Shown one piece after another: positions 7,639 through 22,056 of a stretch of DNA of 22,557 nucleotides. Under the pieces are notes generated by a model that was given only the letters and a program-made list of their open reading frames with translations, ran no database searches and had not been told where the DNA came from. The position numbers and the translations under genes were made by a program. Each line of letters begins with the position of its first letter. Position 1 is the first letter of the stretch. Source of the DNA: Myxococcales bacterium (GTDB taxonomy: Bacteria > Myxococcota > Polyangia > HGW-17 > SLPX01). The DNA lies in contig SLPX01000259.1 in assembly GCA_007131745.1 (NCBI GenBank), forward strand, positions 1 to 22,557, given 5' to 3'.

Positions 7639-9012
7639 TCAGGGTTCGATGACGCACAGTTTATCGCCGCAATTCGCGTAGAGTGCTCCGTCGGCTCCGA
7701 TGGCCAACTTGGACGAATGATCAAGATCCATGATTTCCTTGACGCCTGTTTCCCACTTGAGACTTCCGTCGCTGCGAATGGCTTTTATGAAACCTGACGA
7801 TGCCATATTGAAGGTACCCGGTGATACAACGTAGACGGTACCCTCACCGTCTACCACTGGGCCGCCATAAAAAACATCAGATACATAGTTCCACGTTCGT
7901 TCACCATCAGATGAAAAAGCGAAAACCTGATTTTCCAGTGCTCTTACAACCATTCCGTCAGAACCCAAAGACAGGGAATCTGAAGCGTAGCCTTCGCCCA
8001 TGGGTCGGGACCACAGGATCTTGCCGTCCATTGAAAGAGCGTAAACTGAATCCACCATATCCACTGAAGCGGAGACATATATGATGCCGTTGTCCCCAAA
8101 GCTCATAGCTGATGTCAGAAAATCAAAGAACTCTATTTGCCACAAGAAATCGCCTTCAGTGTTCAAGGAGAAAACAATGTCTCTGCCGCCTCCAAAAATC
8201 CGGTTTTGCCCGTAAAGCAGTGGAATCGGGTATCCGAAAACAACGTCTACATAGGTCGACCAGCGCTCAATGCCGTCGGGCGCCACGGAAAACAAATTGT
8301 TTTCATCAAGGAAATAAATGTTTCCGTCAGGATCCACTGTTATGTTACTCGGCCTCGACCCTACAGGAATGTTCCAGATCTCGTTTCCATCGTAATCGAT
8401 TGCCATAACAGCATCCGGCTTTCTTTCTTCATGTCCCAAACCGCAATTTTTACTGAGCGCGAAGTAGATGCGGTCTACTGCAAGGGTGATGCCGGTCGGA
8501 AGATCGTCGGAACCCGGGTCGAAATAAATGTTGTCATTGAAATGAGTCAGCGATTCAAAAACCCATTTCTCTGTGCCGTCCGGGTTGAAAGCATGGAGCC
8601 TGCGAACACAGTATTCAGGACCGAACATGCTGCTTCCATCAAAGTATGCATAAAAAGATCCTATGTAGACGGTTCCGTCCGCTCCGATAACAGGATCAAG
8701 GCCCATGAAATCGATTTCGTCCCTTTCGATATACCTGATGGTATCCGGTGTGTCCGGACCCACAGCAGCGGAGCGGCTTCTTCGCTCGGGGCAACCCAGG
8801 TACATCGGCCAAGCCGCGCCCGGCTGCAAGCCTGCGTTTTCACTGCACGGCTTGTGCGTAATCGCATCGCCCGTGCCTGCATCATCAGCCGGGTCCAACC
8901 CTGGCCGGGTGCCGCATGCCGGGTAAACTGCGAAGATCAATACTATAGCGAATCCAACTCCGTCTGGATTGAACCCGAGCCTATATTGTTTTCTTTTCTT
9001 CATGCCGCTCAA
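7639..9012 (-). CDS. PQQ-like beta-propeller lipoprotein (copy 1)
   Basis: Predicted exported lipoprotein, 457 aa. The signal peptide ends at AVYPAC (C33), then a short Asp/Ala/Gly linker and the WPMYLGCPERRSRSA entry motif typical of PQQ-like/BamB-like propellers. About seven blades follow, seen as repeats such as VDPDGNIYFLD, GDNGIIYVS, GEGTVYVVS and IGADGALYANCG, each with a nearby W and a small-residue turn. The function is unknown; this fold is used for protein binding at the envelope. The chosen start is TTG at 9010-9012, with GAGGT 5 nt upstream; the ATG three codons later has poor spacing. The second copy at 14112-15452 has the same TTG/Shine-Dalgarno layout, which supports the choice. 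The two proteins are roughly two-thirds identical by eye. The 3' end faces trxB. Confidence 0.88.
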   Translation of the reverse strand: MSGMKKRKQYRLGFNPDGVGFAIVLIFAVYPACGTRPGLDPADDAGTGDAITHKPCSENAGLQPGAAWPMYLGCPERRSRSAAVGPDTPDTIRYIERDEIDFMGLDPVIGADGTVYIGSFYAYFDGSSMFGPEYCVRRLHAFNPDGTEKWVFESLTHFNDNIYFDPGSDDLPTGITLAVDRIYFALSKNCGLGHEERKPDAVMAIDYDGNEIWNIPVGSRPSNITVDPDGNIYFLDENNLFSVAPDGIERWSTYVDVVFGYPIPLLYGQNRIFGGGRDIVFSLNTEGDFLWQIEFFDFLTSAMSFGDNGIIYVSASVDMVDSVYALSMDGKILWSRPMGEGYASDSLSLGSDGMVVRALENQVFAFSSDGERTWNYVSDVFYGGPVVDGEGTVYVVSPGTFNMASSGFIKAIRSDGSLKWETGVKEIMDLDHSSKLAIGADGALYANCGDKLCVIEP

Positions 9013-9017
9013 AATAC

Positions 9018-9022
9018 ACCTC
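9018..9022 (-). promoter_or_regulatory. Shine-Dalgarno for TTG start of beta-propeller copy 1
   Basis: GAGGT on the minus strand, 5 nt before TTG 9010-9012. It is conserved as CACGAGGTG in the second copy. Confidence 0.6.
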
Positions 9023-9118
9023 GTGAAACTTGTCGTCCACATACACTAAAAAAAATTATTTCAAACTATATCGAGCATAGTGTAAACTGTTTTCGAGAGC
9101 TGTTTCCAGCACAATTAA

Positions 9119-11412: not shown

Positions 11413-13824
11413 ATGAAGAAACAACAGGTTCAAATAAATCTTTTTTTTGCAGACGCTAAGTCCATTGGGAGATCAACGATCTTTCCGGCGAAACTTTTGA
11501 TTTTCCGGGGTTGCCGGCTTGCGCTTTCAGTGACATTTCTGTTTGGCTTTCTATTATTTGGATGGGGATGTAAAAAGCCGTCCACGACCGCCGTCACCCT
11601 TGAGGATAAAGACGGAATTGAAGATACGAGCCCGGTATCTCCCAGTGTTTTGGAAGACTCAGCCGAAGAAGAAAAGGATTCAAAGCATTCCAGACGAGTT
11701 GTTCGCGAGAGATTGAAATCGCTTGACAGTGCAGCCATTGAAGAGCTTGACCTTCGCTTGGCAGACGGGGATGATTTATATTTGGATCTGTCTGAATATG
11801 ATGGGGCTGAGGATGACCTGGCCCTGCTCAAGCAACTTGAATCCAAGTTGATTCGTTTAAGATTATTTAGAGCGAAGATCGGCGACAGGGGACTGAAGCA
11901 TCTCTCGGGGCTTAAAAACCTCAGAGAGCTTAATTTAAGGGCGGATTTTCTGACTGAAACACCAATAATCGGAGATGCGGGCCTGAAGCATCTCTCCGGG
12001 CTTAAAAACCTCAGAAAGCTGGATTTGGGAGAAACACAAGTCGGAGACAGGGGACTGAAGCATCTCTCCGGGCTTAAAAACCTCAGAAAGCTGAATTTGA
12101 TACGTACACAAGTAGGAGATTCCGGCCTGAAGCATCTCTCCGGGCTTAAAAACCTCAGAAAGCTGTATTTGGTAGGTACACAAATCGGAGATGGGGGACT
12201 GAAGCATCTCTCCGGGCTTAAAAACCTCAGAGAGCTGGATTTGGAAGAAACACAAGTCGGAGATGGGGGACTGAAGCATCTCTTCGGGCTCAAAAACCTC
12301 AGAAAGCTGAATGTGTTCAGGACATATGTAACAGATCATCAACTCAAATTGCTTGCTTACAACATGCGGTTTGGAGGGTGGCGAAGCAAAAAGCCTCAAA
12401 CGCTAAAACGAAAAACCCGTCGAAAACAAGAACTCGAAAAAGCAGAAGCTGACGTTCAAAAAAAATCGCGGTCGAAATTTTGTGCAACTATCGCCAAAGA
12501 GCATGCAGAAAACCTACGCAATAATGATCACATAAATACATTTATGTCTCAGTATCACATTTTGACCAAGAGTACCTGCCTGCAAACACAAGACGGAGGG
12601 TTCTGGGGATTCTGGATGAGCGATTCTGAGGACGACTACGGCCACCGAGCTCAATGGACTCTGGCATTCCAGGCCAAGTCCAACACACCCCCAGTCAAGG
12701 TATTCCAAGAAAAATTCGTGTATGATGAGCACGCGGAGAAGGTTTTTTCCCTTTCACTGTTTGACTTCGACGGGGATGGCCGCGAGGAAGCCATCCTCCG
12801 TATAAAAGACTGGGAGCATCACGGAAGTATGCCTCCTCGTGTTGTCATTTTTACAAGTTCAAAAAAAGGATCGGGAGAATATCCCGCAACAAAGGATTTG
12901 AAAATTCAAGACATCACTGATTTTGACGGTGACGGACGACCGGATCTCATCCTTTTAAGTCCTTATTCTTACGATTATCCATTCGGTCATGGAATGACGT
13001 ACTATGGACCACCACTTTTCGCCCGCTCGATGGAAGACGGGACCTTCTCCACTACTCACCCGGCAGCCGAAGAAGCATTCAAAGAACAATGCATTTTACC
13101 TGCAATAGAACCAGCAAAAATAACCAATACGTTTGAGCATCTATTTATGGTTATGGATCTTTTTTGGCGGCGTGTCGCCTGCTTCCGCCACCAAGGAGGT
13201 AGTCGTCAAGAGGCTTTTCACATCTTTCTCGAAGATCTCTTCAAAGTGAAGAGCAGAAATTTCCAAATCCCGGATGTAGGATCCATATCCCCCCACCAAA
13301 TTGACATCTTAAGACTTGTTTTGAATCGGCAAAACCAAGATCCTAAAAAAGAGTCCTTCCAAGACTGGGCTCCCGCTGTTTTGGGAAAGCCCATTCCCGT
13401 TTCAAAAATTACAATCAAAAATGAAACAGGAAAACAATCCTCTGCCACCGTTAAGCCGGACAATTCCATTGAAATTCCCTACTCTGCAGACGCCCATATC
13501 CGACTGCACTTCTCAAAACCGATCTCTATCTTTTTACTTGTCATCACCGCAAATCCGGCCTTGGGAGATTTGAATATCCCCAACTCCTCGAAAATCCGTT
13601 TTTCCGACGGAAGCACCCAACTTCTTGCTCCGGGATTTTCAACCAACCCCCGTTTTTCTGCTGATGAATGCTCAAACAGCCCGGTTTGTATGTACGCCTT
13701 TCGGGATATCTCCACAACCTACCTGGACATAAAAATCAAAGGCTTCAAGCCGGCAAACAAAAAAAACAATCGCATCCGCATCTCTTTGTATCCTCCCTTA
13801 AAACCCCCGAAAAGTTCCCGATGA
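11413..13824 (+). CDS. leucine-rich repeat lipoprotein with FG-GAP-like calcium loops
   Basis: Predicted exported protein of 803 aa. A long N-region precedes a hydrophobic segment (about 36-52) ending at C53 in FGWGCKK, a weak lipobox. Residues 156-305 hold six leucine-rich repeats of the form GDxGLKHLSGLKNLRxLxL; the first is 30 residues and the next five are exactly 24. A basic linker (about 330-355) follows, then a domain with two DFDGDGR loops (D451, D503) as in FG-GAP/VCBS repeats, probably Ca2+ binding. The C-terminal part (about 655-795) is beta-rich and faintly resembles discoidin/glycan-binding domains; this is only a guess. ATG at 11413 has GGAGG 12 nt upstream. The gene is more AT-rich than trxB or the SMP-30 gene. 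Likely a surface binding protein; ligand unknown. Confidence 0.87.
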   Translation: MKKQQVQINLFFADAKSIGRSTIFPAKLLIFRGCRLALSVTFLFGFLLFGWGCKKPSTTAVTLEDKDGIEDTSPVSPSVLEDSAEEEKDSKHSRRVVRERLKSLDSAAIEELDLRLADGDDLYLDLSEYDGAEDDLALLKQLESKLIRLRLFRAKIGDRGLKHLSGLKNLRELNLRADFLTETPIIGDAGLKHLSGLKNLRKLDLGETQVGDRGLKHLSGLKNLRKLNLIRTQVGDSGLKHLSGLKNLRKLYLVGTQIGDGGLKHLSGLKNLRELDLEETQVGDGGLKHLFGLKNLRKLNVFRTYVTDHQLKLLAYNMRFGGWRSKKPQTLKRKTRRKQELEKAEADVQKKSRSKFCATIAKEHAENLRNNDHINTFMSQYHILTKSTCLQTQDGGFWGFWMSDSEDDYGHRAQWTLAFQAKSNTPPVKVFQEKFVYDEHAEKVFSLSLFDFDGDGREEAILRIKDWEHHGSMPPRVVIFTSSKKGSGEYPATKDLKIQDITDFDGDGRPDLILLSPYSYDYPFGHGMTYYGPPLFARSMEDGTFSTTHPAAEEAFKEQCILPAIEPAKITNTFEHLFMVMDLFWRRVACFRHQGGSRQEAFHIFLEDLFKVKSRNFQIPDVGSISPHQIDILRLVLNRQNQDPKKESFQDWAPAVLGKPIPVSKITIKNETGKQSSATVKPDNSIEIPYSADAHIRLHFSKPISIFLLVITANPALGDLNIPNSSKIRFSDGSTQLLAPGFSTNPRFSADECSNSPVCMYAFRDISTTYLDIKIKGFKPANKKNNRIRISLYPPLKPPKSSR
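11878..12327 (+). repeat. leucine-rich repeat array, 72-nt units
   Basis: One 90-nt unit (11878-11967) is followed by five units of exactly 72 nt beginning at 11968, 12040, 12112, 12184 and 12256. The block CATCTCTCCGGGCTTAAAAA is identical in most units, while the bases after CTCAGAAAGCTG vary. It encodes the LRRs and is not a CRISPR array. Confidence 0.93.
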
Positions 13825-14111: not shown

Positions 14112-15452
14112 TCAGGGTTCGATGATGCACAGTTTATTGCCGCAATTCGCGTAGAGGGCTCCGTCGGCGCCGATGGCCAACATGGAAGTAGGATTAATGT
14201 TCATGATTTCCTTACCGCCCTTCTCCCACTTGAGAGTTCCGTCGTGGCGTATCGCGTTGAGACGACTGTTATTAATGGCATATATCGTACCTTCTCCGTC
14301 TATCACTGGACTCTTGCGATACCTTGCCGATTCCTCTTCATAGGTCCACAGTAGTTCACCATCCGACGAAAAAGCGTAAACACTATTTGCTATTGAACCT
14401 ACAATTATTCCGTCAGGACCCACAGCGAGGGATGATGTAGTCGAATCTTCGCCGATGGTTTGGGACCACAGAATCTCTCCTTCCGTTGAAAGGGCGTAGA
14501 GTGTATCCACCTTGTCCACTGAAGCGGTGAGATATATGATGTTGTTGTCTCCCAGGCTCATGGCTGATGTCAATGAATCACCGATCTCCATTTGCCACAA
14601 AAGATCGCCATCAGTGTTCAATGAGAAAACAGTGTTTATGCGCCCGCCGAAAATCCGGTTTTGCGCGTATAGCAGCGGAAACTGGTATCCGCTACCAACG
14701 GCTATATTAGTCGACCAGCGCTCGATGCCGTCGGGCGCCAAGGAAACCAAAAAGTTTTTATCAAGGAAATAAATGTTTCCGTCCTGATCCATTGTTATGC
14801 TGGTAGGATTGGAATCGTGGCTTACAGAAAAGCTCCAGATCTCATTTCCCTCGTAATCGATTGCCATGACAGCAGCGGGTAAGCCTATCTCATGTCCAAT
14901 ACCGCAATCTCTGCTGATTACGAAGTAGATGCGGTCTATCCCAAGGGTGATAGCGGTCGGAGGATTTCCTGAACCCGGGTCGTAATAATTGTCTTCTTCA
15001 AAATCAATCAGTGATTCAAAGACCCACTTCTCTGTGCCGTCCTGGTTGAACGCATGGAGCCGCCGGATACAGTATTCAGGACCGAACATGCTGTTTCCTT
15101 CAAAGTATGCATAAAAAGATCCTATGTAAACGGTTCCGCCCGCTCCTATGACGGGATTTATTCCCATCCAATTGATGTCGTCTCTTTCAATGTACCTGAT
15201 TTTGTCCGGTGTGGCCGGACCCACAGCAGCGGAGCGGCTCCTTCGCTCGGGGCAACCCATGTACATGGGCCAAGCCGCGCCAGGCTGCAAGGCTGCGGTT
15301 TCACCGCAAGGCATGGGTGTAATCGCATCGGCCGTGCCGGCATCTTCAGTCGGGTCCAATCCGGGCCGGGAGCCGCAGGCCGGGAAAACTGCGAAGAACA
15401 CTACTATTGCCGATCCTAAATAGGTTGGTTTTCTTTTATTCATGCTTGTCAA
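14112..15452 (-). CDS. PQQ-like beta-propeller lipoprotein (copy 2)
   Basis: Predicted exported lipoprotein, 446 aa, paralogue of the protein at 7639-9012; both end in DKLCVIEP or NKLCIIEP. The signal peptide ends in AVFPAC (C26), then the same linker, AWPMYMGCPERRSRSA and about seven propeller blades (DQDGNIYFLD, GDNNIIYLT, GEGTIYAIN, IGADGALYANCG). Copy 2 lacks a small insertion near the N-terminus and one near the last blade. The start is TTG at 15450-15452, with GAGGT 6 nt upstream, as in copy 1. The M14 carboxypeptidase gene ends 47 nt upstream on the same strand, so the two may be co-transcribed. The 3' end converges with the LRR gene. Function unknown; probably periplasmic or surface. 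Confidence 0.88.
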   Translation of the reverse strand: MTSMNKRKPTYLGSAIVVFFAVFPACGSRPGLDPTEDAGTADAITPMPCGETAALQPGAAWPMYMGCPERRSRSAAVGPATPDKIRYIERDDINWMGINPVIGAGGTVYIGSFYAYFEGNSMFGPEYCIRRLHAFNQDGTEKWVFESLIDFEEDNYYDPGSGNPPTAITLGIDRIYFVISRDCGIGHEIGLPAAVMAIDYEGNEIWSFSVSHDSNPTSITMDQDGNIYFLDKNFLVSLAPDGIERWSTNIAVGSGYQFPLLYAQNRIFGGRINTVFSLNTDGDLLWQMEIGDSLTSAMSLGDNNIIYLTASVDKVDTLYALSTEGEILWSQTIGEDSTTSSLAVGPDGIIVGSIANSVYAFSSDGELLWTYEEESARYRKSPVIDGEGTIYAINNSRLNAIRHDGTLKWEKGGKEIMNINPTSMLAIGADGALYANCGNKLCIIEP

Positions 15453-15499: not shown

Positions 15500-17830
15500 T
15501 TAATCGTTAACCTTCCAGCCTACGAACACCACGTCACTGACAATAAACGGGTCGCAATTTCCTTCGTCGCTTGTTACCTCGAAGATGACGGTGACATCCT
15601 CCTCGCCGTCGAAATCCATGGCATCCACAACTTCGGTGTTGAAGAAGCTGAACGACGAATTGTTGAATACTCCACGACCAGTACGTGGATGCCGGCGTAC
15701 GATTCGCTGCTTTGTCCTGCTCTGGATCCGCACCTGGACGATTTTGCAACCTTTCGAGCTCTGAAGAAAACTGTAAAACAGGCGAGCGTCACGCATCGTC
15801 TTCAGGCTGACTCTTTTTCTGGCGATATAGGATCCGACGCCGCCGTCAATGACCCATCCGCAGAAGGGAAAGTTTCTGAATGTGAACCCTTTGCCTTCAG
15901 GGAACAACCCGGTGGTGCAGAGGTTTACCTGATTGTGACCGTCGTCGAGGACGATGGTTTTACAACCTTCCTGGCGGGAGCAGATAGTCGCTTCCGGGGG
16001 GAAGATATAAGGTTTGTCCGGCACCCACTGGTAGAGATTGTAGGTGTGCCCTTTTACATCGTCGTTTGAAGTGCCCAAGTAACCGTCCGGCGGAAAGATC
16101 TTCACATTGGTCAGGCCTTTCAAGGCCGCGGCGTAAAGCGCCGGTTGGTTATTGTTCCAGCATTCTCCTGTGACCTGGTAATCATTGTCGTATTGGCCAT
16201 AGCAGCGGCGCTCTATTGCAGGTATGCTGTAATGACCTACTTGTGAGGCAGCGTATGAACCATTTTTGATGTCCGGGAGTAACTCGAGCAGGTAGTGGAC
16301 GAGTTCGATCTGGTTCGCCGCGAGGTCGTCGACGTAAGTCTTCGGGAAATCCTCTGCAAGGAATGGTGAATATTCATATGGATTCCACCAAGAAAGTTCG
16401 AGAGTGACGGAGATCGGTTTTGTCATCCCATCAGGAAATTCGCCCATCATGAGTTCACCCTTCAGGCCGCCGCCGACCGGATAAATGATGCGATCGCCTA
16501 TTCCAATCGGCCATCGTTCGTCCCACTCAGGATCCAGGAAAGGATCGATCCCATTGGGCGTCTTCGACTTGATGGATGACTCAGGGTCTTCGCTGCCGAA
16601 AATGGACCTGAGCAATCCGAAATCCGGGGTGAGGCAATTGTCCCCGACTTCACACTCCTCAGGATCATGACCGCTTGTCCCCGTCCCGGGATGGAAGAGA
16701 ACCATGTTGCCCCATGTATGCACGTCGAGAGCAACCACGGGTTCATATGAGCCATGCGGGCCATATTGCAGCTCCAAATCGTTTATTACCAGGTTCTTCA
16801 ACGCCTGGGACTCTGATTCGGAGAAAGCTTCGGAGCCCCTATATATCAATGAGCTGCAATTGCCCGATCCGAACCCTTGTCCGAATCCAACTTCATAATT
16901 CCTATTCAGGTCTACACCGGGTGTGAGTTCGCAATGTTGCTTGGTGCGGCTTTTTCTCCAGCTACGGGTTACATCATGAGAATGCTGGTATCCATCAGGA
17001 TTTGCCACCGGAACTACAACCAAGGTTCGGTCTTTCAAAAGAGAAGCGATATCGCCGCCCGGATTGTCGCTGAGTTCCTCAGCGAAATATCGAATTATCC
17101 GCATGGCGGCTTCCGCGGCCATCCACTCTTGAGCATGCTGGGTGGCGATGTAATAAAGAGCGGGCGACGCGTCATCGTTTTCTTCGGTGATTCGCCCGAT
17201 TCTTACGGCGTAAATGGGCCGTTCATGTTCGGCTGTTTCCCCAATGATCACCTTTTGAACGTTATTCGGCCCATAGGTGGATTCGATTTTTTTTATTTCT
17301 CTTTCGATGGATTCTTTGCACCTGTCGGCTGTCTCGTTTTCGTCGTACGGACAGAAGATATCACCGGCGGCTTTGAATCTCCTACCGCTCACAATGTTGA
17401 AACCGAGTTCAATCGGTTCGTCCGGATGTGATTCCGCCCTTATCTTCTCGAGAAATGTGATGGTGCAATTCGGATCGGATGTTGCTTCCTCCCAGTATTC
17501 ATCGGTGAAGGATCTCCGTGTCGGCAACTCGACGTCCACGCCCTGGACTTGGAGTTGTTCGACCTGGCCCTCCATGAGCCTTACGAGATAGCGATCTTGA
17601 ACCTCCGGGCGAACGTCCCGCCGAGCCATGCTCGAAGGCAACAGGAATCCCTGTATTTCGAGATCCATGTACATTTTTCGCGTGGGAACCGATATTGAAT
17701 ACACTATCAGTTGAGGTTTTTGTTCGGTACGTTCGGAGTAGGTTTCATCGGTGTCTTGAACAGGCGCTACCGTGCAGTAAGCTATGAACAAAACTACTGC
17801 AGGGAGGGCAATGAGGGCCGGCCACTTCAT
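15500..17830 (-). CDS. M14 zinc carboxypeptidase lipoprotein
   Basis: Predicted exported metallocarboxypeptidase of 776 aa. The short signal peptide MKWPALIALPAVVLFIAYC places the lipid-modified Cys at 19. A propeptide-like region (about 45-115) precedes the catalytic domain: zinc ligands H232 and E235 in TQHAQEW, substrate-binding DLNRN (R310), third zinc ligand in LDVHTWG (H371) and catalytic E478 in LELSWW. The usual Arg in HAREW is Gln here. A region of about 230 residues with several Cys follows and ends in a beta domain. ATG at 17828-17830 gives an ideal lipoprotein signal but has no close Shine-Dalgarno. The frame stays open upstream through a pentanucleotide repeat to GTG at 17891-17893, so a longer N-terminus rich in Lys/Arg/Glu is possible. 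Divergent from the mosaic lipoprotein; possibly in one operon with beta-propeller copy 2. Confidence 0.9.
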   Translation of the reverse strand: MKWPALIALPAVVLFIAYCTVAPVQDTDETYSERTEQKPQLIVYSISVPTRKMYMDLEIQGFLLPSSMARRDVRPEVQDRYLVRLMEGQVEQLQVQGVDVELPTRRSFTDEYWEEATSDPNCTITFLEKIRAESHPDEPIELGFNIVSGRRFKAAGDIFCPYDENETADRCKESIEREIKKIESTYGPNNVQKVIIGETAEHERPIYAVRIGRITEENDDASPALYYIATQHAQEWMAAEAAMRIIRYFAEELSDNPGGDIASLLKDRTLVVVPVANPDGYQHSHDVTRSWRKSRTKQHCELTPGVDLNRNYEVGFGQGFGSGNCSSLIYRGSEAFSESESQALKNLVINDLELQYGPHGSYEPVVALDVHTWGNMVLFHPGTGTSGHDPEECEVGDNCLTPDFGLLRSIFGSEDPESSIKSKTPNGIDPFLDPEWDERWPIGIGDRIIYPVGGGLKGELMMGEFPDGMTKPISVTLELSWWNPYEYSPFLAEDFPKTYVDDLAANQIELVHYLLELLPDIKNGSYAASQVGHYSIPAIERRCYGQYDNDYQVTGECWNNNQPALYAAALKGLTNVKIFPPDGYLGTSNDDVKGHTYNLYQWVPDKPYIFPPEATICSRQEGCKTIVLDDGHNQVNLCTTGLFPEGKGFTFRNFPFCGWVIDGGVGSYIARKRVSLKTMRDARLFYSFLQSSKGCKIVQVRIQSRTKQRIVRRHPRTGRGVFNNSSFSFFNTEVVDAMDFDGEEDVTVIFEVTSDEGNCDPFIVSDVVFVGWKVND

Positions 17831-17846
17831 CAAACGGTGTTTACGG

Positions 17847-17881
17847 CTCTTCTCTTCTCTTCTCTTCTCTTCTCTTCTCTT
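17847..17881. repeat. pentanucleotide microsatellite (CTCTT)x7 at the 5' end of the carboxypeptidase gene
   Basis: Seven perfect copies of CTCTT (AAGAG on the coding strand), ending 16 nt before the ATG at 17830. An ATG at 17883-17885 just upstream reads through the tract in another frame and stops after 14 codons. With 5 or 8 copies that ATG would be in frame with the carboxypeptidase. Confidence 0.97.
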
Positions 17882-17893
17882 GCATGATTCCAC

Positions 17894-18468
17894 CCGCTTT
17901 CTTGGAAAGATCTACCAATGAGTAACAAAGTAGATCAAAGTGTTTATAGATGTCAATGATATTTTTTGATAAGGGTAGTTTTTCTTTTATAAATGTTATT
18001 CGTGTAATGTAAGAGACGATAAAAAGGGTGGTGAATGTTTGGGCGGGTCTGAACTGTGAGCGGATGGAGCTGATCGTAGCGGAACTTTGCCTGATCTCTC
18101 CCTGCGGTATTGAAGGCTGAGATCCGCCGCCGCCGATGTTTTTCAAATGGTTGCACGGGGTGATCGCAAAGTCGTATTTTCGATAATTTCAGATTTGTCT
18201 GAGAACTCGGAACTCAATTAAAGCAATCAAAAGCTTAACTGTTCTCTGAGTATCAGCGCAAAAAAGCACTTTGCGATTGCCCTGATTATAGTTCGCGTTA
18301 TCCTTGTTAATTCCTTTTTTTTTTGCTAACCAATCGTAGTTCGGCACTCAACTGGTCCTTGAATGTATGCGGACCTCGAGGTGTTTGGTTTCGATTAAAA
18401 GAAGAATACAGGATCTGGTTGGAATTTTGAAAACAATGGAAGAACTAGGACTTAAGGAGGAAATAATC
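17894..18468. other. divergent intergenic region
   Basis: No gene is supported in these 575 bases. The stretch 17930-18010 is AT-rich and probably holds the carboxypeptidase promoter. The palindromic element copy 1 lies at 18159-18281. A poly-T run lies near 18316-18324. AAGGAGG (18454-18460) is the ribosome binding site of the next gene. Confidence 0.5.
18159..18281. repeat. palindromic element of about 125 bp, copy 1
   Basis: Left end GGTGATCGCAAAGTC, right end (reverse complement) GGCAATCGCAAAGTG: imperfect inverted repeats, 12 of 15 matching. After the left end comes GTATTTTCGA; before the right end comes CAAAAAAG. An internal stem is GAGAAC (18201-18206) with GTTCTC (18241-18246). Both ends match copy 2 at 22169-22293, in the same orientation. 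No coding potential. Confidence 0.75.
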
Positions 18469-21400
18469 ATGAAACGCCGACTTTACCCCTTTTTCGCCGC
18501 GGCTTTGATTTGCGGCTTGATGTTTGCCGCGTGCGGTGGCAGTGGTGACGACAAAGCTGTTTGTGGAGACGGAATAATCGATGAGGGAGAGGAATGTGAC
18601 GGAGACAATCTCGGCGGGATGACTTGTGGTGACCTCGGCTACGGCGGAGGCACACTTGCTTGCACCGATGATTGCACTTTTGACACAACCGGCTGCTATG
18701 CGGCCGCGGAGTGCGGAAACGGAATCATAGAAGTCGGCGAAGAGTGCGACTCGGGCTACCTGGGCGGCGCCACCTGCGAAAGCGAGGGCTACGACGGCGG
18801 CGATTTGGCTTGCAACGATGACACTTGCAGGTTCGATGTTTCCGGGTGTTGCAACCATGAGTGTTCCGTCGAAGGCGAGACCCGTTGCAACGGCAACGTG
18901 ATTCAGTCTTGCGAAATGGGCCAAGAAGGCTGCCGGGTGTGGGCGGACGTGGAAGATTGCGAAGACAACAATCAGTTCTGCGTTCACGAAGATGGGGACA
19001 CGTATTGTGCGGACACTTGTGTAGACGAATGCTCCGAGGCAGGGATTTACCAGTGTGACGTTAACGTAGTCCAGGTCTGCGAAGAGGGCACAAACGGCTG
19101 CCTCGTGTGGGCCGATGTCGAAGATTGTGAACTCAACGGACAAGAGTGCGTAGAGGACGGAGACGACGCGTATTGCGTGTTCACCTGCGTGAGCGAGTGC
19201 ACGGATTCCGGCGATCTCCGCTGCAATGGAATGATCCTGGAAGTATGTGAAGAGGCGGCTGATGGATGCTTTTACTGGGAAACAAGCGTAGATTGTACCG
19301 ATACGGACCAGGTATGCGATGACTATAACGTGACGCCCGCCTGTGTGGACCAGTCAAGCGGAGAGGCTTGCGATGACGCAGCGATCGTTGCAATGGGCGT
19401 GAACGCGTTCACCGGGACTTTTGATGATGACCCGATTGACGCGTTCTCCTGCAAGGACGACATGTACAATGCCATCTGGGTTCGTTTCACGGCGCCCCAG
19501 GACGATGATTACACTATCTTGGCACAGAACAACACTACGACGTGGGCGTATTCCCGCATGGTTATTTTGGACGGCACGGATTGTTCTCCCTATGGAAGCG
19601 AGTTGCTGTGCGACGATCAAGACGCCCGCACAATGGAGAGGGAGATCACTTTGACAGAGGGACAGACAGTGTTGATCGTGTTTTCAGCGGACGGGCAGAA
19701 CTTCACGATGGTCAACCCGGTGATCACCATAAGCAGGGAATGCGATCCCGACACCGAGTTTACATGCAATGACGGAACCTGCATTCCCGCGGCCGGGCGC
19801 TGTGACGGAACCGAACACTGCCCGGACGGTTCGGACGAGTGGGCATGCATTGGCGACGAATGCACCAACGCGGCTGAGGTTTTTATGGGTGAAAACGCTT
19901 TTACCGGGATTTTCCATGATGACCCGATTGATGTTTTCTCCTGCGCGGACGATATGTACAATGCAATCTGGCTGGAGTTCACGGCTCCCGAGGACGGCGT
20001 GTATGAGATCCATGCACAGAACAACACCACGACATGGCCGAATTCCCGCATGGTTATTTTGGACGGCACGGATTGTTCACCATATGGAAGCGAGTTGCTG
20101 TGCAGTGACTCAAATGCGAGATCTATGACGGAAGAAGTCGCATTGACCGCCGGACAGACCGTACTGATCGTGTTTTCCACCAATCTTGATTCCAACACGA
20201 TGGTGAACCCGGTGATCACGATAACGAGACTTTGCGACCCGGACACCGAGTTCACCTGCAATGACGGAACCTGCATTCCATTGGAACAGGTCTGCGACGG
20301 AGTAGAACAATGCCCGGACGGTGAGGACGAATGGGGATGCATCGGCGACGAATGCACGAACCCGGCCGAAGTGTTCGTGGGCGAAAATGTCATGATGGGA
20401 ACTTATACCGACCATCCGAGCCCTGGTTTTAGTTGCAACGATGATCCGCCGAACACGATTTGGTTGGTGTTCACCGCTCCTGAAGACGGTGACTACACAA
20501 TCTCCGTCACGAACAACGGTGGGGGTTTTCCGGGAATGGCTGTTTTGGACGGTGATGATTGTGCTCCATACGGTGATGAGTTGCTTTGTGTACCCCCTCC
20601 CGATTGGAGTTATACAAACACTGGACAAGTCGTATTGACGGACAACCAGACCGTATTGATAGCGATTTTTACCGACGGGACGGAATGGACAATGGTCGAC
20701 CCGGTGGTTACGATAACATTTGTGGAACCGTGTGTTGATGATATTTACTCGCCCAACCATACGATTGAGACCGCGGCTCCGCTCCTGCCCGGGTATTATC
20801 AGGATCTGGTTCTGTGCGGCGACGATGATGACTACTTCTCGTTTGAAGTTTGCCCGGGCGGTGTCTTGGACATAGCGGTTCTTTTCACCCACGCCCAGGG
20901 TGATATCGACGCGTACATCCGGAACGCCGACGGGACGCCATTGGCCTCTGGTGTTAGTATGGACGACAACGAGTACTTATCATACAGGAACAACACCGAT
21001 GAGACGGTGACTCTGTACCTGCATGTGACATTGTTCAGTGGAAACGAGAACGATTACGAGGTGTTGGCCGGCATAGACGAATGCTGCAGAGGGGGCGTGG
21101 TGATCAGCCAGGTGTACGGCGGCGGCGGCAATTCAGGAGCGGAATATAGAAACGATTTCGTTGAGTTGCACAACACCGGGAGCACTTCAGTATCGTTGGC
21201 CGGATGGTCGATTCAGTATACTTCGGCGGGGGGGAATAATTGGGGCAACCAGTTGACCGAACTCTCAGGGGTCATCCAGCCGGGAGGATTTTACCTGGTT
21301 CAATTAGCGGCCGGAACCGGTGGAACCATGGATCTTCCGACTCCTGATGCAACAGGGGACATACCGATGTCTGCAACGAACGGAAAGGTAGCGCTTGTTG

Positions 21401-22056
21401 CGAGCACGGATCCGCTGGATGAAGTAACGTGTCCGGACGGGTTCGTGGACATGGTGAGTTATGGAACCGGCACGCCGTGCGTGGGCGAAGCGACGCCTGC
21501 TTTGAGCAATGAGACAGCGGCGATACGTGGGGATCTTGGTTGCAGGAATTTGCGCGATAATTTCCAGGATTTCCATGTAGGCGCGCCGATTCCGCGCAAT
21601 TCACTATCAGAAGTTTCGCTTTGCAGCGAGGACTGTTATGTGAACGAGACAGGACTGGATGTCGAGGCGGATTACTGCGTGATCCAGTGGCCCCATGAGA
21701 TTCCCGATGACGACCCCGGGCCTGCCGTTTACGGGCGGATCTGGGAAGACGGCGTGACGCCGGACGAGTTCGCACCGATAGTCGCTCAGCTCGGTTGGGG
21801 CCCGGAGGACGTGAATCCTCAGACGCAATCGGGGTTCAGGTATGTCTACGCCGGGTTTAACTTGATTGACGGCAATGACAACGAGTATGTCGGCATGCTT
21901 CCGTTGGCGGACATGTTGCCCGGGGATTACAGGTATGTATACCGGTTCAGTTTGGACGGGGGGCACACCTGGACCTATTGCGACACGGTGGGATCGGGAT
22001 CGAATGAAGGGTTGTTTTTTGATCCTGAATTCATGGGGACGCTCAACGTGCAGTGA
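18469..22056 (+). CDS. mosaic surface lipoprotein: Cys-rich repeats, PPC-like and LDLa modules, lamin-tail domain
   Basis: Predicted exported lipoprotein of 1195 aa. Lipobox FAAC (C22). Residues 32-76 and 82-127 are two GEECD-type disulfide repeats. Residues 128-300 hold three Cys-rich repeats (ECSxxGxxxC, WADVEDCE). Then come two 164-residue modules (301-464, 465-628), each a PPC-like beta domain ending in an LDL-receptor class A domain (C425-C460, C589-C624, with CDG and DGSDEW or DGEDEW), a third beta domain without LDLa (629-755), a PPC domain (about 756-871), a lamin-tail domain (about 874-1050, ISQVYGGGGNSGAEYRNDFV then ELHNTG) and a C-terminal beta domain (1057-1195, RYVYRFSLDGGHTWTYCD). 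No enzyme motif is seen; a Ca2+-dependent adhesin or binding protein is the inference. ATG at 18469 has AAGGAGG 8 nt upstream; the frame upstream to 18367 is not used. Confidence 0.93.
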   Translation: MKRRLYPFFAAALICGLMFAACGGSGDDKAVCGDGIIDEGEECDGDNLGGMTCGDLGYGGGTLACTDDCTFDTTGCYAAAECGNGIIEVGEECDSGYLGGATCESEGYDGGDLACNDDTCRFDVSGCCNHECSVEGETRCNGNVIQSCEMGQEGCRVWADVEDCEDNNQFCVHEDGDTYCADTCVDECSEAGIYQCDVNVVQVCEEGTNGCLVWADVEDCELNGQECVEDGDDAYCVFTCVSECTDSGDLRCNGMILEVCEEAADGCFYWETSVDCTDTDQVCDDYNVTPACVDQSSGEACDDAAIVAMGVNAFTGTFDDDPIDAFSCKDDMYNAIWVRFTAPQDDDYTILAQNNTTTWAYSRMVILDGTDCSPYGSELLCDDQDARTMEREITLTEGQTVLIVFSADGQNFTMVNPVITISRECDPDTEFTCNDGTCIPAAGRCDGTEHCPDGSDEWACIGDECTNAAEVFMGENAFTGIFHDDPIDVFSCADDMYNAIWLEFTAPEDGVYEIHAQNNTTTWPNSRMVILDGTDCSPYGSELLCSDSNARSMTEEVALTAGQTVLIVFSTNLDSNTMVNPVITITRLCDPDTEFTCNDGTCIPLEQVCDGVEQCPDGEDEWGCIGDECTNPAEVFVGENVMMGTYTDHPSPGFSCNDDPPNTIWLVFTAPEDGDYTISVTNNGGGFPGMAVLDGDDCAPYGDELLCVPPPDWSYTNTGQVVLTDNQTVLIAIFTDGTEWTMVDPVVTITFVEPCVDDIYSPNHTIETAAPLLPGYYQDLVLCGDDDDYFSFEVCPGGVLDIAVLFTHAQGDIDAYIRNADGTPLASGVSMDDNEYLSYRNNTDETVTLYLHVTLFSGNENDYEVLAGIDECCRGGVVISQVYGGGGNSGAEYRNDFVELHNTGSTSVSLAGWSIQYTSAGGNNWGNQLTELSGVIQPGGFYLVQLAAGTGGTMDLPTPDATGDIPMSATNGKVALVASTDPLDEVTCPDGFVDMVSYGTGTPCVGEATPALSNETAAIRGDLGCRNLRDNFQDFHVGAPIPRNSLSEVSLCSEDCYVNETGLDVEADYCVIQWPHEIPDDDPGPAVYGRIWEDGVTPDEFAPIVAQLGWGPEDVNPQTQSGFRYVYAGFNLIDGNDNEYVGMLPLADMLPGDYRYVYRFSLDGGHTWTYCDTVGSGSNEGLFFDPEFMGTLNVQ
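19369..20352 (+). repeat. 492-nt tandem modules (PPC-like plus LDLa)
   Basis: Units 19369-19860 and 19861-20352 are both exactly 492 nt (164 codons). Long identical stretches occur, for example GTTATTTTGGACGGCACGGA at 19561 and 20053. A third, more diverged unit lacking the LDLa part follows from 20353. Confidence 0.9.

Follow-up and report, generated by a model that had tools for sequence, protein, structure and literature searches.

The window, a 22,557-nucleotide stretch of DNA from a Myxococcales bacterium, carries seven perfect copies of the pentanucleotide AAGAG at the 5' end of an open reading frame (ORF) for an M14 zinc carboxypeptidase. We propose that this tract is a slippage-prone microsatellite in a translated leader, where it acts as a translational phase-variation (contingency) switch, a good but unproven candidate to which we give an even chance of being correct. 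Of nine start codons scored, the sole one with a good Shine-Dalgarno (SD) sequence, ATG 17885, lies upstream of the tract, and this is a stronger reason to suspect a switch than those put forward in the original prediction. The features of the locus, with start codons named by the position of their first base on the gene strand, are as follows.

17891..17899, minus strand: SD-like sequence AAGCGGGTG, 5 nt before ATG 17885; -9.4 kcal/mol
17891..17893, minus strand: GTG 17893, a weak ribosome site; -0.7 kcal/mol in the SD zone, -4.5 over 20 nt
17883..17885, minus strand: ATG 17885, the only one of nine scored starts with a good ribosome site
17841..17885, minus strand: 14-codon upstream ORF at 7 copies, reading MQEKRREEKRREEP and a stop (by translation); ends 10 nt before ATG 17830
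17847..17881, minus strand: (AAGAG)7, a perfect pentanucleotide tract (seven copies of CTCTT on the plus strand); Tandem Repeats Finder, 100% match, 7.0 copies
17828..17830, minus strand: ATG 17830, the called start, downstream of the tract and without a ribosome site of its own
15500..17830, minus strand: M14 zinc carboxypeptidase ORF, 776 aa, with hydrophobic leader MKWPALIALPAVVLFIAYC (PF00246, hydropathy)

The AAGAG tract is perfect and rare

The AAGAG tract of the window is real and rare. The original prediction had assigned it the range 17847 to 17893; the tract and its position at the 5' end of the M14 ORF (gene strand, 17881 to 17847) are confirmed, but the perfect repeat takes up 17847 to 17881 only, and the rest of that range covers start codons. 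Other period-5 runs within the window reach 2.4 copies at most, and in 200 windows simulated with a second-order Markov model the period-5 maximum was 3.0 copies (mean, 2.4), so a run of seven is not due to chance. The array is a perfect tandem repeat of a unit that is not a multiple of 3, and its 7 copies, counted in one assembled sequence, compare with the minimum of about 5 pentanucleotide copies looked for in a repeat locus. In a Neisseria survey with PhasomeIt, phase-variable pentanucleotides are those of 5 or more units (PMC5953494), a cut-off that (AAGAG)7 exceeds.

Perfect pentanucleotide tracts of at least 4 copies, whatever the unit, were absent from 559,075 bases of 91 other loci (L001-L091). 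A sample of 377 genomes was taken from the phylum to which G002, a record with the title Myxococcales, belongs; 4 of them have (AAGAG)5 or more and 7 have (AAGAG)4 or more. A control with the pattern written backwards matched 3 and 6 of the 377 genomes at these respective thresholds; as AAGAG reversed is a rotation of AAGAG, this control is not independent and is uninformative. One of the seven genomes, with its copies at contig ends, was set aside, and comparison of the six remaining contexts revealed no common design. At L092:1501-1525, (AAGAG)5 directly precedes, in SD position, the ATG of a gene for an RNA-binding, glycine-rich protein, presumably of the RRM type. A second site lies 5 nt before an ATG having only 35 codons, a third is within low-complexity DNA, and the other three are inside or beside open frames. 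No pentanucleotide tract of at least 3 copies was found in 11 distant M14 loci (L081-L091), three of which were also inspected at the 5' end, and the tract is therefore no long-standing trait of this family of enzymes. As to the statement that such tracts are rarely described in myxobacteria-like groups, a literature search on simple sequence repeats and phase variation in Myxococcus-type bacteria matched one paper, a Helicobacter study, and one on phase variation in Myxococcus xanthus matched 86, with no title on repeats among the 10 listed.

A gene on the CTCTT strand was considered and rejected, the mini-ORF at 17811-17921 (plus strand), MRAGHFIKRCLRLFSSLLFSSLLLHDSTRFLGKIYQ, being only 36 aa long and taken as a mirror coincidence. 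Its stretch LFSSLLFSSLL resembles a Neisseria Opa leader, and this look, antisense across the tract, is probably a coincidence of complementary codons.

Longer repeats are also present in the window. A 72-bp tandem repeat (11969-12309, plus strand; 4.7 copies, 87% matches) lies inside a leucine-rich-repeat ORF (11413-13824), where a gain or loss of copies would lengthen or shorten the protein without a frameshift, since 72 is a multiple of 3. About two copies of a 492-bp repeat (19393-20517, plus strand) lie in ORF 18469-22056 (plus strand); the protein carries LDL-receptor class A, LTD, and PPC domains as well as a lipoprotein-like leader, and the SD of the gene is strong.

The gene encodes an M14 carboxypeptidase that is probably exported

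The Peptidase_M14 family (PF00246) matches the ORF at E 4.5e-38, with 131.9 bits versus a cut-off of 21.6, and carboxypeptidases A and T in the PDB are matched at about 2e-19. Residues H232, E235, and H371, an HxxE motif plus a later His, align with carboxypeptidase A and are invariant in seven aligned sequences; we take them to be the zinc ligands. Judged from the hydrophobic core at its N terminus, the carboxypeptidase is probably exported. In lipoproteins a small residue precedes the cysteine, and lipidation of the M14 product is doubtful, since the cysteine after FIAY lacks such a residue.

P0001, the closest protein in the database, is identical except for 3 of 776 residues (Q/R234, T/I615, and K/D693), so that there appears to be another allele or assembly. 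P0001 begins at ATG 17830, which counts against a switch, as does the complete hydrophobic leader encoded from ATG 17830 alone. Residue 234, inside the HxxE zinc motif, is Gln in the window and in P0002 and Arg in P0001 and carboxypeptidase A. P0002, the next relative (68% identical), has no leader, its first residue corresponding to residue 41; such a start would fit an out-of-frame leader, a weak hint only, as a miscall is as likely.

Scans of genome contigs for the peptidase and of viral contigs with P0002 returned 5 stretches matching a pattern and 10 stretches, respectively, none encoding a relative, and none of 20 plasmid records covered 80% of the query. Two matches at E 1e-10 came from seven genomes reached through loci. 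In the G002 phylum, 7 of 377 genomes had a match at E 1e-20 or better (best, E 1.4e-50 with 33% identity). The 282 genomes of the G001 phylum gave three, all previously found under G002, which indicates that G001 and G002 belong to the same phylum. At E 1e-25 there was no match in 47 genomes of the G006 phylum or 40 of the G004 phylum, where an empty answer carries no weight.

Among other genes of the window, a neighboring thioredoxin reductase gene has five closest relatives, among the matches listed, that are 73-78% identical; a further scan of genome contigs listed matches from mixed phyla. Two similar-looking PQQ/BamB-like ORFs with lipoprotein-like leaders (7639-9042 and 14112-15452, both minus strand) are probably paralogues.

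The only good SD site lies across the tract from the gene body

Nine candidate starts were scored as duplexes with the anti-SD sequence of the 16S tail, with the 756 ATG contexts of the window serving as reference. For ATG 17885, upstream of the tract, an equally good SD is found in 22 of 756 ATG contexts in the usual spacing zone and in 38 of 756 over 20 nt. ATG 17830 scores 0.5 kcal/mol in the SD zone, a value equaled or bettered by 740 of the 756 contexts, and -2.1 kcal/mol over 20 nt (610/756). GTG 17893, eight bases ahead of ATG 17885, opens an ORF of 797 aa, and TTG 17833, TTG 17918, and TTG 17928 reach -2.1, -4.7 (235/756 as good), and -5.3 kcal/mol (173/756), respectively.

In nine other ORFs of the window the scores range from -8.3 to -13.4 kcal/mol, taking for each its best-scoring start, a choice that flatters the comparison genes; two of them (15452 and 9012) have nearby alternatives, ATGs 15443 and 9003, that reach only -6.1 and -5.9 kcal/mol in that zone and that were taken as starts in the leader comparison below. 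Even so, SD starts appear to be in use in this genome, and the only good SD site of the M14 gene, among the nine starts scored, sits across the tract from the gene body. Scanning the gene strand revealed no sigma-70-type promoter, which counts against the switch.

Copy number sets the frame of the leader

Each slip shifts the reading frame, since units of 5 nt do not make up whole codons. The original prediction held that ATG 17885 (17885-17883) reads MQEKRREEKRREEP at 7 copies and then stops, and translation bears this out. It further held that 5, 8, or 11 copies would fuse this ATG in frame to the signal peptide and that GTG 17893 (17893-17891) is in frame at 7, and both statements agree with a frame table computed for 3 to 12 copies. 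With 5, 8, or 11 units ATG 17885 is fused in frame to the peptidase, and the assembled state, at 7, is not fused. With 4, 7, or 10 units the upstream ORF from ATG 17885 stops 10 nt before ATG 17830, and with 3, 6, 9, or 12 it ends in TGATG, a one-base overlap with ATG 17830. GTG 17893 reads into the peptidase at 4, 7, and 10 units. ATG 17830 (17830-17828) is also in frame at 7 copies and, being downstream of the tract, is unaffected by its length. A change in copy number thus moves the gene in or out of frame with a start, and the tract lies between start and gene body if ATG 17885 (SD, -9.4 versus 0.5 kcal/mol for ATG 17830) or GTG 17893 is used.

Between the tract and ATG 17830 the frame contains no stop and reads SRKHRL. 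Net charge before the hydrophobic core would be +6 in the fused form at 8 copies, compared with +1 when ATG 17830 is the start and +1 to +4 in five other leaders of the window. The suggestion that tract length might alter translation through the leader receives no support from predicted RNA structure, as the openness of the two start regions stays almost the same between 4 and 9 copies (0.41-0.45 and 0.58-0.59). A copy-number effect through RNA structure was rejected, there being no clear copy dependence of the predicted openness at the starts.

A model for the proposed switch and its alternatives

The frames together with the SD placement give the leader the anatomy of an opa/licA-type translational phase-variation locus, perhaps with three output levels. 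Ribosomes would bind at AAGCGGGTG and initiate at ATG 17885, and the number of AAGAG units modulo 3 would set what they do next. At 5, 8, or 11 units they would read through into the signal peptide, giving an N-extended product and full output. At 4, 7, or 10 units, the assembled state included, they would make a short peptide and stop 10 nt before ATG 17830, with low or restart-dependent output. At 3, 6, or 9 units the stop in the TGATG overlap with ATG 17830 would allow coupled restart and possibly intermediate output. We infer that ATG 17885 is used as a start, that the tract slips at a useful rate, and that output differs between the states.

As regards the switch that had been predicted, the frame arithmetic is right and the SD scoring adds independent support, but the strict on/off reading has to be softened, since GTG 17893 and ATG 17830 are both in frame at 7 copies. 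Restart at ATG 17830 is possible, given that both non-fusing frames stop the upstream ORF at or just before it. That these frames end 10 nt before a second, SD-less start or in a 1-nt overlap with it (TGATG) could make for a three-level translational rheostat, in which slippage, instead of merely turning the exported peptidase on or off, would move it among three kinds of output (fused, coupled-restart, and weak-restart); we put this forward tentatively and consider it unlikely.

The tract could also be a neutral microsatellite that slips in a non-coding leader, with ATG 17830 as the start and copy number having no effect, an account that we regard as possible if somewhat doubtful. P0001 starts at ATG 17830, the 11 distant M14 loci lack the tract, and the (AAGAG)4+ sites of six other genomes share no common design, all in keeping with neutrality; moreover, frame-changing repeats would be expected to survive mainly outside coding sequence, which would favor positions near gene ends. 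Such neutrality fits poorly, however, with an ATG 17830 devoid of a ribosome site when, immediately beyond the tract, there is an ATG that has a good one.

Two further readings give the tract a constant role or one independent of frame. If translation starts at GTG 17893, the tract would encode a charged leader of a 797-aa protein and slips would be rare deleterious mutations. The GTG is indeed in frame at 7 copies and the frame through the tract is open, but its SD pairing amounts to -0.7 kcal/mol in the zone and -4.5 over 20 nt, compared with -9.4 at ATG 17885, and we find such a non-switching N-terminal extension quite improbable. We likewise give little credence to the idea that the AAGAG array serves ATG 17830 as an extended site for ribosome binding or standby, its copy number tuning initiation through leader length or purine content without frame effects. 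Such arrays can occupy a ribosome site, as (AAGAG)5 abuts the ATG of the RNA-binding-protein gene in L092; here, however, the nearest AAGAG unit ends 16 nt before ATG 17830, which is too far for normal SD spacing, and the predicted openness of both start regions stays about constant over 4 to 9 copies.

Comparison with known phase-variable systems

A 2025 review sees a gap in the knowledge of phase variation where bacteria from habitats such as ocean and soil are concerned (PMC11868660). Repeat-driven phase variation is known mostly from pathogens. If confirmed, the translational switch proposed here would affect an exported enzyme that degrades protein, in a lineage with no named relatives, and could suggest bet-hedging in the secretion of an enzyme that is a public good rather than immune escape.

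In the Neisseria opa genes, CTCTT is on the coding strand. These repeats lie in the signal-sequence region at the 5' end of the gene, and copy number sets the frame (PMC13183285). The M14 locus shares with opa a cyclically equal unit (CTCTT/AAGAG), placed in both where an exported-protein gene has its 5' end. Whereas opa repeats encode signal sequence, AAGAG on the coding strand would encode a charged stretch before the signal peptide, and the product is an M14 peptidase rather than Opa. Moreover, Opa variation is established and that of the present locus is a candidate. With CTCTT on the non-coding strand and a PF00246 product, the locus was rejected as a member of the opa family.

The licA gene (lic1 locus) of Haemophilus has start codons alpha, beta, and gamma immediately upstream of a frame-changing repeat, the tetranucleotide CAAT, present in 5-45 copies in 74 H. 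influenzae strains (PMC2992063). The likeness is in having more than one start codon right upstream of such a repeat; the difference is that here there are one strong ATG and one weak GTG, plus a further in-frame ATG downstream of the tract. A short pentanucleotide tract in coding sequence is also found in H. influenzae hsdM, whose (GACGA)4 is reported to be phase variable at a high rate, with rates estimated (PMC2651432); hsdM is a restriction-modification gene, and no signal peptide is involved. The yellow/tan phase variation of M. xanthus, which concerns colony color and swarming, is phase variation in the group that the original prediction had in mind, but its main text contains neither the word "repeat" nor "slipped" (PMC3986340).

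We consider the AAGAG/M14 locus a credible candidate of an already known kind, namely, opa/licA-type translational phase variation, with graded output through restart at ATG 17830 as an added possibility beyond a switch of that type.
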